From Bacteroidales bacterium (GTDB lineage: Bacteria > Bacteroidota > Bacteroidia > Bacteroidales > Paludibacteraceae), in contig JALFYY010000024.1 of the NCBI GenBank assembly GCA_022783865.1, positions 55,229 to 119,228 of the forward strand: 64,000 nucleotides of DNA, read 5' to 3'. Below, piece after piece: positions 4,259 through 61,575 of the stretch (its first letter is position 1; every line of letters begins with the position of its first letter). Both the position numbers and the translations under genes were made by a program. Below the pieces are notes generated by a model that saw only the letters and a program-made list of their open reading frames with translations, was not told the DNA's origin and did no database searches.

Positions 4259-4423
4259 ATCGTGCTTCGTTTGCCATTCGGCGGAAAAGCGGTGCAAAAG
4301 TACTACCTTTTTTTGAATCTCGCAAGAGGTAGCAAGTTTTTTTTCGAAAAAAGTTGCTATCCGTTGCCTGTTTGCTCCGATTTGTTCCGGGAAACGCAAA
4401 ATTTCACCCCTCTATGCTATCGC

Positions 4424-4456
4424 TATCCCTAAAGTATCCATAAAGTATCCCTAAAG
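4424..4456 (+). repeat. 11-bp array, TATCCCTAAAG family, three units
   Basis: TATCCCTAAAG, TATCCATAAAG, TATCCCTAAAG, followed by GAAAA. The same array followed by GGAAA occurs at 23.45 kb, and inverted at 44.02 and 61.48 kb. Confidence 0.8.
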
Positions 4457-4530
4457 GAAAACACAGGAGAAACTAACGAGATGAAAGCATGGAGACAGTT
4501 GCAAGGTATCCATCGAAAAAGCAGAAGATA

Positions 4531-12289: not shown

Positions 12290-13555
12290 TCAACGGCTTG
12301 CCGTTTCTTCCGCGTAATAGCGCAAACAGATCGAGCGCAGCAGTTCCCTGTCTGCAATGATTTCCCGCAAATGCCGCAAGCCTTCCTCGTTGCGCTTCGA
12401 GTGTAACCACAAGCGTATATAGCCCCCTTCGGCATATTTGTTGAGCATATGTTCGTATGCCCGCTCAAAATGCTCTTCCGCACTGAGTTCGGGATAGTTC
12501 TTCAGTCCGTATTGTATGGTTCGGCACAGAATGGTTTCAGGCGAAATATCACGGTCGGCTTCCGCCACAATCTTGCCATAGATAGAACGGGGCTCCGATT
12601 TGGCACTGGCACGATGGTCTTCCGCCGCTTGCGCCATGATTTCTATCTGTTCGGGAGTAAACCATTGCCTGAGCGCATCATCTTCCCGTATATAGGCACC
12701 TGAATACAAATGGTGCTCTGCACGATTGACACGCAACCCCAAGTCGTGATAAGCCGCTATGGTATAAGCCATTATGCCGTCCGCATCATATTGCCGTGCC
12801 AGAACAAGGCTCTCATCAATCACCTTCCGCACATGTTCCATATTATGCCCTTTGTCGAAAGTGCTGTAATACGGGAAAACGTTTTTCCCGATATGCGCCA
12901 TCACCCGGAAGAACACGAGCAACTGCTCCATATTGTCCAATATCAGATCCGCCCCGACCGACTGAAAATCTTTGCGTTCCAATATGCCCGTATTCACAGC
13001 CACCGTGAACAATCCTGCAGCCTTGGCGGACACCACTCCCAATGGCGCATTCTCCACCACTATACATTCTTCTTTCCTGAGTCCCGAACGCTCCCAAGCC
13101 TTCAGATATGGCTCCGGATCAGGCTTTCCGTGTTCCACATCGTAAGCAGTTATCATTCTTTCACGGACAAACGAACCGGGAAAACAATGGTCCAAATGCG
13201 CAAAAAGCGTATCTTGTGCAGAACCGGTGACTACCCATGCAGATATTCCTTGCCGTTGCAATTCTTGCAGCACTTCAGCAACACCCTCTATCGGATAAGT
13301 CTCTCCACGGTGTGCAAAAGCCTCAGTCTTCTCTTTATAGAGACTCCACACCCAATCTTTGTCCGGCGCCACACCATATTTGCGCTTGTAACATTCCGTT
13401 ATCACATCCGGTCCGGTACGTCCTTCTTGCAGATAGACGTCCTTTGCCGTAAAATCGAACTGATAACGCTTCATTACTTCCTCCCAAGCCTGGGCATGAT
13501 GGGGCATCGAGTCAAAAAGCGTCCCATCCATATCAAAGAAAACAGACTGAATCAT
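12290..13555 (-). CDS. HAD-family phosphatase fused to an HD phosphohydrolase domain
   Basis: A 421-residue two-domain protein. Residues 1-215 are a HAD hydrolase of the beta-phosphoglucomutase type: motif I DMDGTLFDS, motif II VVTGSA, motif III Lys in HGKPDPEPY, motif IV region VVENAPLGVVSAKAAG. Residues 230-400 form an HD domain with GHNMEHVRKV, the YHDLG metal pair, and further candidate ligands in EDHRAS and EADRD. Both halves have intact active-site residues, so this appears to be a bifunctional phosphatase; substrates are unknown. It stands alone, convergent with the DUF456 gene. Confidence 0.85.
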   Translation of the reverse strand: MIQSVFFDMDGTLFDSMPHHAQAWEEVMKRYQFDFTAKDVYLQEGRTGPDVITECYKRKYGVAPDKDWVWSLYKEKTEAFAHRGETYPIEGVAEVLQELQRQGISAWVVTGSAQDTLFAHLDHCFPGSFVRERMITAYDVEHGKPDPEPYLKAWERSGLRKEECIVVENAPLGVVSAKAAGLFTVAVNTGILERKDFQSVGADLILDNMEQLLVFFRVMAHIGKNVFPYYSTFDKGHNMEHVRKVIDESLVLARQYDADGIMAYTIAAYHDLGLRVNRAEHHLYSGAYIREDDALRQWFTPEQIEIMAQAAEDHRASAKSEPRSIYGKIVAEADRDISPETILCRTIQYGLKNYPELSAEEHFERAYEHMLNKYAEGGYIRLWLHSKRNEEGLRHLREIIADRELLRSICLRYYAEETASR

Positions 13556-13643
13556 ATTGTTTTACACCCTTGAACCTTTACTTTTTAATCGTCATATCAC
13601 ACAATTGTCCTGCTGTCAAATAGCCGATTGCTCCAATCTTTAT

Positions 13644-13797
13644 AGCTTCCGTCCCCGTACCATTCCCGTACGATTGCCGTACCATTGCCGTACCATTGCC
13701 GTACCATAAAGCGTAGCATTATAGCACATCATCCTACTCCATACATGCCTTTAAGCATCCTTCCCCGTACAATTCCCGTACAATTAAGCACCCCTTG
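13644..13797 (+). repeat. 11-bp phased array, CCGTACCATTG type
   Basis: From 13655 the units are CCGTACCATTC, CCGTACGATTG, CCGTACCATTG twice, CCGTACCATAA, then diverged units AGCGTAGCATT, ATAGCACATCA, TCCTACTCCAT, ACATGCCTTTA, AGCATCCTTCC, and again CCGTACAATTC, CCGTACAATTA. The 11-bp register holds for at least 12 units. It fills most of the gap between the HAD-HD and DUF4301 genes. Confidence 0.8.
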
Positions 13798-13814
13798 CCG
13801 AGATGCAAAACTGT

Positions 13815-15275
13815 TTATTGGTGTTGCGGACGAAGCAGGTCGTTGACCGTCTTCACAGGATTAAACGTCTCCACCGGTACTTCCACAAACACGGTATTCC
13901 AGTCTGCCATAGCGCCGTTCCATAGGCCGGGCAACTCCAATGCTTGCAAATCGCGACCGTCTTTCGATTTCTGCGAAATGAAGCCCGTAAGCGGATCCAC
14001 ATAGTGCGGAAGGTCGAACGCAACGCCCTTATAATCACGCAATGCGCATACCAAATCAACAGGATTGAAGTGCGTAGCTTTCTCCATAAGGCTCTTGTCG
14101 GCAATCTGCGAGCTTTCCAAAATCTGACACTGCACACTGCCGTCTTTGGCGTCACGCACCAGGAACGGGCCTCCACCCGGTTCGCCTTCGTTCCGCACCA
14201 TACCGCATACACGCAACGGACGGTTCAGCTTCTCACGCAGAACGCTTTGCAATTCCTCCGTATCGGCAATACGGCAGCAAAGGTCGTTCTCCAAGAACCG
14301 GCGAATCACCTGCAAACGCTCTGTCGGCAACGGCTGTTCCAACTCACGCAAATAACCGAACACCTTTTCCTGCAAACTTACCAACACGCCAGCCAAAAGC
14401 CGTTTATAAAGCACTGTAGGTTCTTTCTGATTGTCGGGCACCACATTGTCGATGTTCTTGATAAATACCACATCGGCTTGTTGTTCGTTGAGGTTCTCTA
14501 TCAGAGCGCCGTGTCCGCCCGGACGGAAGACAAGCCGACCGTCTTTGTCACGGAAAGGCTCACATTCCGCAGTAGCAGCCAAAGTGTCGGTTGACGGTTT
14601 CTGTTCCGAGAAAGAGATGTTGTATTTCACTCCGTAACGCTGTCCGTAATCAGCCGCATGATTCAAAATATGCTCTTTGAAAAGTTGCAGATGCTCATGC
14701 GACACCGTGAAATGCAGATTCACTTCCTGCTTGGTATTTTTCGCATAGAGTGCCCCTTCTACCATGTGTTCCAACACCGGAGTACGCAGTTCTGTCGCAT
14801 ATTTATGGAAAAGCAAAAGCCCTTTGGGCAACTTGCCGTATTGCATATCTTCGAGCAGCACACGGATTTGTTCCCGTTTGTCGGTAACACCTTTGGCATT
14901 GATGCGCTCTTGCCATTCCTTTGCGAAAGCGAACTTGCCGGCATTGCTGAAAAACTCCCGGATAAAAGCCGTCTCTTCACCGCCGTCCATATATTCGAAC
15001 AGATTCTTGAACATGCGGCTTGCCGCACCGGAAGCTGGTACAAATTTCAGGATAGTATGGTCGCATTGCAGATAACGCTCCCACGCAGAGAGATATTGTT
15101 CCTGTTCTTGTGCAGTAGGACGGAGAATACCGTTGTTGATACCGGCAGCCTGCTCAATATCCAATGCAGGGAAACCCTCTTTGAACATTTGCAACTGCTT
15201 TTCTGCCACAGCTAAAGATATCCCTCTTTGCTGCAATTGTTGAAGATCGGATGAAGTAAACATAGTATTGTGCAT
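13815..15275 (-). CDS. DUF4301 family protein, possible nucleotidyltransferase-like fold
   Basis: A 486-residue soluble protein without signal peptide; a second ATG four codons in is possible. I recognise the Bacteroidetes DUF4301 family. Three motifs recall UDP-sugar pyrophosphorylases: a Gly/Ala-rich loop FVPASGAASRMFKNL (residues 78-92), RPGGHGALIENLN near 250, and VFIKNIDNV near 275, similar to the GGHG...NxDN signatures. This is an inference from motif shape, not an assignment. Also conserved-looking is RNEGEPGGGPF near 375. Single gene with its own consensus promoter. Confidence 0.8.
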   Translation of the reverse strand: MHNTMFTSSDLQQLQQRGISLAVAEKQLQMFKEGFPALDIEQAAGINNGILRPTAQEQEQYLSAWERYLQCDHTILKFVPASGAASRMFKNLFEYMDGGEETAFIREFFSNAGKFAFAKEWQERINAKGVTDKREQIRVLLEDMQYGKLPKGLLLFHKYATELRTPVLEHMVEGALYAKNTKQEVNLHFTVSHEHLQLFKEHILNHAADYGQRYGVKYNISFSEQKPSTDTLAATAECEPFRDKDGRLVFRPGGHGALIENLNEQQADVVFIKNIDNVVPDNQKEPTVLYKRLLAGVLVSLQEKVFGYLRELEQPLPTERLQVIRRFLENDLCCRIADTEELQSVLREKLNRPLRVCGMVRNEGEPGGGPFLVRDAKDGSVQCQILESSQIADKSLMEKATHFNPVDLVCALRDYKGVAFDLPHYVDPLTGFISQKSKDGRDLQALELPGLWNGAMADWNTVFVEVPVETFNPVKTVNDLLRPQHQ

Positions 15276-23446: not shown

Positions 23447-23490
23447 TATCCATATAGTATCCCTAAAGTATCCCTAAGGTATCCCTAAAG
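23447..23490 (+). repeat. 11-bp array, TATCCCTAAAG family, four units
   Basis: TATCCATATAG, TATCCCTAAAG, TATCCCTAAGG, TATCCCTAAAG, then GAAACC. It lies in the gap between the efflux operon and the helicase gene. Confidence 0.8.
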
Positions 23491-23563
23491 GAAACCTTAA
23501 CATACAGTGGCTACCTGAAAGCTACATAGGATTAAGATATATTAACAATTATAGTCAACCACA

Positions 23564-33150: not shown

Positions 33151-33170
33151 AGCCGTCACCAACATTTAAA

Positions 33171-33214
33171 TACTGGGTGATAACTGGGTGATTACTGGGT
33201 GATTACTGGGTGAT
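33171..33214 (-). repeat. 11-bp array, TCACCCAGTWA family, four units
   Basis: TACTGGGTGAT, AACTGGGTGAT, TACTGGGTGAT twice on the plus strand. The same array occurs inverted at 49.62 kb, next to the same flanking sequence. Confidence 0.85.
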
Positions 33215-33285
33215 TCATGTATAATACGTATGCTTTCAAGCACTTATGACCATATTTTTGTAGAGACGGAGCGTGCTCCGTCTGA
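33215..33285 (-). repeat. Composite repeat: spacer plus ACGGAGC palindrome, copy 1
   Basis: On the minus strand: TCAGACGGAGC-AC-GCTCCGTCT with CTACA, then a ~45-bp spacer containing AAGTGCTTGAAAGCATACG, then the 11-bp array. It matches 49552-49622 in opposite orientation with only a few differences. Confidence 0.85.
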
Positions 33286-43958: not shown

Positions 43959-44018
43959 AGCCTGCCTTGCAGCAAGCCGCCGGATTGCGTTTTCCAAGCC
44001 GTCGACTCATATGTTTTC

Positions 44019-44051
44019 CTTTAAGGATACTTTAGGGATACCTTAGGGATA
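44019..44051 (-). repeat. 11-bp array, TATCCCTAAAG family, three units
   Basis: CTTTAAGGATA, CTTTAGGGATA, CCTTAGGGATA on the plus strand, i.e. the inverted orientation of the 4.4 and 23.4 kb arrays. It lies 60 bp past the uvrB stop. Confidence 0.8.
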
Positions 44052-44196
44052 GCGAACCGGTATTTTTCCGGAACAGACGGAAAAACCTCCCGTACATTGC
44101 ACAAAAGTTTTCCGTTCCGGTATTTTTGGCTCATCGTTACTGCCGGCACAGCAGAAGAATAATCCGGCGGATGTTCGCCGTATAAGAAATTCTTTG

Positions 44197-45913: not shown

Positions 45914-45937
45914 GCGTTTAGGGCAGGTTGTTTGCAA

Positions 45938-45975
45938 CTAATCTGCGGACTAATCTGCGGACTCATCTGCCGGAC
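45938..45975 (+). repeat. 12-bp tandem repeat, three units
   Basis: CTAATCTGCGGA twice, then CTCATCTGCCGG. It lies between the fossil and the Nudix gene. Confidence 0.65.
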
Positions 45976-45984
45976 TGTTTCTAT

Positions 45985-49551: not shown

Positions 49552-49622
49552 TCAGACGGAGCACGCTCCGTCTCTACACAGATATGGTCACAAGTGCTTG
49601 AAAGCATACGTATTATACATGA
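49552..49622 (+). repeat. Composite repeat: ACGGAGC palindrome plus spacer, copy 2
   Basis: TCAGACGGAGC-AC-GCTCCGTCTCTACA followed by the spacer with AAGTGCTTGAAAGCATACG. It is the inverted counterpart of 33215-33285, 16.3 kb away. Confidence 0.85.
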
Positions 49623-49688
49623 ATCACCCAGTTATCACCCAGTAATCACCCAGTTATCACCCAGTAATCACCCAGTTATCACCAAGTA
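49623..49688 (+). repeat. 11-bp array, TCACCCAGTWA family, six units
   Basis: ATCACCCAGTT and ATCACCCAGTA alternate for five units, then ATCACCAAGTA. The alternation implies a 22-bp higher-order unit. Bases 49689-49810 continue as low-complexity sequence without a gene. Confidence 0.88.
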
Positions 49689-49810
49689 ACAGAAGCCAAG
49701 TGTACCCTAACTGTAAGTTACATAAATACCCATAGAACAACACCTGATTATACCGGGGATACTACATAACAGGACAAGGGGATTACAAAAGAATTACAAT
49801 GGAAGCAGGA

Positions 49811-61371: not shown

Positions 61372-61459
61372 ATGGTGCCGGTTCACCTGTTCCACTCCCA
61401 CAAATCCCGGTGCTTTCCAACAGCCTTCATACCAAAAATTGCCGCCTTATTTTACCGAA

Positions 61460-61575
61460 GGTTTCCTTTTGGTTTCCTTTAAGGATACCTTAGGGATACT
61501 TTAGGGATAGCCTGCCTATACCGCTCCATTTCTACAACCCTTGTACAATCCTTCTATAACCCTTGTACAATCCCT
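61460..61575. repeat. Long 11-bp register joining two repeat families
   Basis: GGTTTCCTTTT and GGTTTCCTTTA lead in. Then, from 61477, CTTTAAGGATA, CCTTAGGGATA, CTTTAGGGATA (inverted TATCCCTAAAG family), GCCTGCCTATA, CCGCTCCATTT, CTACAACCCTT, GTACAATCCTT, CTATAACCCTT, GTACAATCCCT stay in one 11-bp phase. The remaining gap to 61703 shows no gene. Confidence 0.75.

Follow-up and report, generated by a model that had tools for sequence, protein, structure and literature searches.

Intergenic arrays of 11-bp units that keep register across diverged DNA in a genome of the Paludibacteraceae

That heptamers are in excess in the intergenic DNA of bacteria is long established, and sporadic repeats of 5-11 nt have also been described (PMC4679880, PMC4692102; survey PMC12699852), with no agreement as yet on the cause. 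Polymerase contact length has been proposed as the cause of the heptamers, and Calothrix has been reported to have several different ones (PMC4679880, PMC4692102). In E. coli the gyrase motif, of about 130 bp, has G+C with a 10.75-bp period in its arms and BIME-2 elements are enriched for it (PMC6379681), and the intergenic DNA has an A/T periodicity of about 11 bp (PMC516772). We describe here an intergenic element, from an uncultured gut bacterium of a genus of Paludibacteraceae whose close relatives are largely ruminant-gut assemblies, that is quantised in steps of 11 bp, holds its register over diverged DNA, is dispersed in the genome, has units specific to the species and has no bias in orientation to the genes. 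A sequence-only reading of this DNA knew of no earlier account in Bacteroidales, and in the open-access literature we likewise did not find an 11-bp class described there.

The window, that is the whole stretch of DNA analysed, is 64,000 nucleotides long, and the element is at 13644-13797 within the intergenic gap at 13556-13814. The gap separates a HAD/HD-domain gene (12290-13555) from a DUF4301 gene (13815-15275), both on the minus strand and both assigned from their open reading frames and Pfam domains, and the gene pair is kept in relatives. The element is 14 x 11 bp in length and all of its parts are read on the plus strand. The leader unit, AGCTTCCGTCC, at 13644-13654 has an AGC in phase with array A, which occupies 13655-13709 and comprises five CCGTACCATTG-type 11-mers, starting at 13655 (CCGTACCATTC), 13666 (CCGTACGATTG), 13677 and 13688 (CCGTACCATTG in both cases) and 13699 (CCGTACCATAA). 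The middle module at 13710-13764, which is conserved among dispersed copies, comprises five degenerate 11-mers (AGCGTAGCATT, ATAGCACATCA, TCCTACTCCAT, ACATGCCTTTA and AGCATCCTTCC). It is followed by array B at 13765-13786, with two CCGTACAATT-type 11-mers starting at 13765 (CCGTACAATTC) and 13776 (CCGTACAATTA), and by the end unit AGCACCCCTTG at 13787-13797, which is common to the copies on contigs C17 and C26 and has a variant form on C15. Both arrays are defined by TRF and by comparison with paralogues.

Recognisable units at both ends, with the two halves in phase, had been noted from the sequence alone and are confirmed: TRF calls a period of 11 for arrays A and B separately, and their first units are 110 bp or 10 x 11 apart, which is exact register. 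Identity across 13644-13797 is 0.50 at lag 11, 0.43 at lag 22 and 0.45 at lag 33, for a background of about 0.25. The 55-bp middle by itself has a lag-11 identity of 0.25, which is no signal, and thus this locus alone cannot show it to be five diverged 11-mers; it is the paralogous copies that prove the 11-mer make-up of the middle.

The element is dispersed and species-specific, with about 12 copies in all, of which this locus is one. Across the whole genome (1.92 Mb, 29 contigs) the pattern has 172 near-matches and its reversed control 65, and the close matches lie at roughly a dozen sites. The copies are composite, the order often being an AT-rich heptamer stretch, then leader, array A, middle, array B and end unit. 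C9 and C15 have a near-identical copy of the middle found in the window and C27 a similar one, and as it is common to these copies it was copied along with the element; the proposal that it is an old array that drifted in place is thus not upheld. The copies on C16, C17 and C26 have other middles, with 66, 88 and 44 bp respectively from the last A unit to the first B unit, all multiples of 11; with the middle of the window this distance is 66 bp. On C15 there are two inverted copies (201 bp, 96.5% identity) that differ by whole units, in array length and in the GC-anchored units that follow. The comparison covered one genome per species, and copy-number steps were assessed on paralogous copies within one genome, where the predicted change of length in steps of 11 is indeed seen, in middles of 44, 66 and 88 bp. 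The comparison of paralogous copies shows gain and loss of whole units plus dispersal.

In sister species DUF4301 is again followed by the HAD/HD gene, with gaps of 3-145 bp, and in the closest relative the orthologous gap is 13 bp and lacks the element. The unit of the element is present in only one of 178 genomes of the genus, and the whole element is a species-specific arrival in the DUF4301-HAD/HD gap. In one sister species the orthologous gap has an unrelated 11-mer array, AACGGTGTGGT, of about four copies (L141:7395-7445). As the closest relative has no element in this gap and units are replaced from one species to the next, no function is conserved at this locus.

With regard to the genome as a whole, autocorrelation by lag with shuffled controls, which had been suggested as a check, gives a clear intergenic excess at lag 11. 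Over 464 kb, identities of 9 bases at lag 11 occur at 11.0 per kb in intergenic DNA, compared with 0.01 in dinucleotide shuffles, about a thousandfold difference, and 0.09 in coding DNA, and the intergenic peaks are only at 11, 22, 33 and 44, plus small ones at 7, 8, 14, 16 and 21. A census of tandem arrays in 1.25 Mb of the genome, including 118.8 kb of intergenic DNA, gave 116 arrays of period 11, 46 of period 8, 31 of period 7 and three of period 12, with none of period 9, 10 or 13-15. The 7-mers (AACTATT) and 8-mers (AAATTGTC, AGATGAGG) in this sample are separate intergenic classes, and 7-mer and 11-mer arrays share gaps above expectation (OR 7.9). By their units the 11-mer arrays sort into about 15 families, many of which are not related to one another. 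Elsewhere in the genus, in other species, periods 7 (50 arrays), 11 (22) and 8 (11) are common, with few at 9, 10, 12 and 13; their 11-mers use unrelated units, and array numbers vary much from species to species. An assembly artefact is unlikely because independent genomes carry 11-mers with other units, and a universal unit motif is ruled out by the differing families and the species-specific units. A genome of another family (G060) appeared to have a 10-bp class, for which the several 10-bp arrays proved to be restricted to one gap (L109:18488-19014).

The window has further 11-mer arrays. Those of the TATCCCTAAAG family are at 4423-4458 and 23447-23492 on the plus strand and 44017-44054 on the minus strand, and an array of the AATCACCCAGT family is at 33169-33219 on the minus strand. 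At 61458-61556 two arrays are neighbours, of the TATCCCTAAAG and AACCCTTSTAY families. The array called by TRF at 49621-49689 on the plus strand is a dimer form of the AATCACCCAGT family in which AATCACCCAGT and TATCACCCAGT alternate with a 22-bp period, which suggests amplification of two units together. One of the three 12-bp arrays in the 1.25-Mb sample is also in the window, at 45937-45976 (ACTAATCTGCGG x 3).

The proposal that the 11-bp register is locked across conserved and diverged DNA holds well beyond this locus, being found throughout the 1.25 Mb sampled. All 11 pairs of adjacent arrays of the same family, 31-86 bp apart, are in exact register. Extra unit copies, defined as matches of at least 9/11, at 22-140 bp from an array number 73 in phase and four over the ten other phases combined; about three chance matches are expected as calculated from base frequencies, so the out-of-phase copies are as many as chance predicts. 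The same test on the 7- and 8-mers of this genome gave no phase preference, and thus register lock is not a general trait of slippage arrays. However, many of the in-phase cases derive from related copies that are not independent: clustered by the intervening DNA the cases reduce to six independent types, four in phase and two out, and two out of phase is about the number that chance 9/11 matches would give. A small sample from other species of the genus is in the same direction, with seven in phase within 66 bp and about four over all other phases.

With the arrays masked, intergenic lag-11 identity remains (z 15.7), as it does at lags 22 (z 9.8), 33 (z 7.5) and 44 (z 6.1), and the strongest dinucleotide signal at lag 11 is from GC pairs (z 15). 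Runs of at least three GC at 11-bp spacing, with the other bases unlike, number 45 compared with 5-16 at other lags, the longest being of eight units at C1:35297. The arrays sit amid degenerate 11-mers that share the in-phase GC dinucleotide alone, there being only weak preferences beyond it. The GC anchor was not found in the other species of the genus, so it may reflect common descent within one element family rather than a general rule.

Array orientation relative to the genes has no bias (11 same, 11 opposite). All gap types contain arrays, with enrichment in convergent gaps of 150-500 bp (OR 3.2, p 0.002), which could mean only that such gaps tolerate insertions. The RNA fold of the array is not above shuffles (z -0.78) and an Rfam search with the element matched no family. 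A phage or plasmid origin was dropped as searches of both found no relative, and a RAYT/Y1 transposase was dropped as the disperser because PF01797 is absent from the genome. These results suit a dispersed repeat that is tolerated between genes more than one that regulates particular genes. A cis-regulatory element or RNA serving the neighbouring genes would fit the position upstream of the HAD/HD gene, but with no orientation bias, every gap type used, no unusual fold or Rfam match, and a gap that is absent or unrelated in relatives, we consider it very improbable.

The reading that we favour, with a little less than even confidence, is of a mosaic intergenic repeat of 11-bp units, dispersed in the genome and specific to the species, in which register is held most likely by one contact per helical turn. 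Its backbone would be a run of 11-bp units that share little beyond in-phase GC once diverged, single backbone units would be amplified locally into arrays, and, as the paralogues show, whole 11-bp blocks are gained and lost and finished elements are copied into other gaps. Indels of other sizes would be removed or not made, and the lock would then be maintained and not merely young. As to why the step is 11, we infer as the most likely cause that a protein wraps or polymerises along the DNA and touches it once in each helical turn, with a copying process having an intrinsic 11-nt step as a close second; both helical phasing and a fixed-step mechanism were raised in the sequence-only reading and both are possible. 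Helical phasing explains why 11-mers alone keep register and why the GC steps are phased. However, helical phasing would be satisfied by a period of about 10.5-11, whereas the period is exactly 11 and arrays of 10 or 21 bp are absent from the genome; this counts against it, as does the non-conservation of the element. A broader proposition, which we judge doubtful, is that the elements are a satellite-like bacterial DNA, held in exact 11-bp register by selection for a protein contact at each helical turn but otherwise almost free to change in sequence from species to species.

Ordinary minisatellite slippage plus dispersal would account for much of this if the elements are young, with too little time for other indels and the register unselected. 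The species-specific units, found in one of 178 genomes, the empty orthologous gap in relatives, the balanced orientation and the inheritance of one middle length by dispersed copies all agree with it, and the relatedness of many copies leaves it some room, though we think it rather unlikely. It does not readily give middles too diverged to slip that differ by exactly 11 (44, 66, 88), 7- and 8-mers without a lock in the same genome, or unrelated units that are all of 11 and never of 9, 10 or 13. Copying with a fixed 11-nt step, by polymerase or nuclease geometry or by templated addition at GC microhomology, could make 11-bp blocks of any sequence, and would thus suit the exact 11, the unrelated units, the same period with different units in other species of the genus and the gain and loss of units in degenerate stretches; the heptamers offer a precedent (PMC4679880, PMC4692102). 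We give it a low probability, as it lacks a candidate enzyme, the Y1 transposase being absent, it has to accommodate the coexisting 7- and 8-mers, and copying alone leaves in-phase retention after divergence unexplained. The elements may also be candidate strong sites for wrapping by gyrase or a nucleoid protein, by analogy with BIME-2 or the Mu strong gyrase site, with phased G+C steps that set the position of the DNA on the enzyme, and with a preference for convergent gaps because positive supercoils collect there. The periodic G+C of the BIME-2-enriched E. coli motif (PMC6379681), the phasing of GC steps at 11 and the convergent-gap excess would be in keeping with this, but the period is exactly 11 and not 10.75, not all units are GC-anchored and 7- and 8-mers are present as well, and we see it as quite improbable.

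In this genome a strict 11-bp class occurs alongside 7- and 8-mers, and only the 11-mers keep register across diverged DNA, so that slippage and helical phasing can be told apart by an internal control. Were the register under selection, the arrays would offer a simple readout of how DNA phase is sensed by a nucleoid protein or topoisomerase.

The closest described systems are the short tandemly repeated repetitive sequences (STRR) and other intergenic heptamers (Calothrix/Nostoc, Xanthomonas GGGAATC, Beggiatoaceae TAACTGA), which are alike in having many dispersed fixed-unit intergenic arrays and a sporadic distribution (PMC4692102, PMC4679880). The 116 arrays of period 11, found in 118.8 kb of intergenic DNA, are of this multi-copy, fixed-unit kind, but the unit is of 11 and not 7, the 7-mers being a separate class, and neither the register across diverged DNA between arrays nor the degenerate GC-anchored backbone is a feature of the heptamers. 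The Beggiatoaceae TAACTGA is placed at the start codon and the 11-mers are not. The enterobacterial BIME/REP elements are also dispersed multi-module intergenic mosaics, and REP-like hairpins occur in this genome (GACGGGGC..GCCCCGTC 31 copies, GACGGAGC..GCTCCGTC 10 and GACGCGAT..ATCGCGTC 11), for example near 33169 and 49621 in the window; however BIME/REP elements have a REP palindrome core with a RAYT in the genome, whereas here the core is an 11-mer array with no fold above shuffles and there is no Y1_Tnp match. In the strong gyrase site G+C recurs about every 10.75 bp within two arms, each of about 47 bp; in the present elements GC is phased at exactly 11. The A/T periodicity of E. coli (PMC516772) has the same period of about 11 bp and is likewise concentrated between genes, but it is a weak ApA/TpT bias, whereas here there are near-identical repeated units and phased GC.
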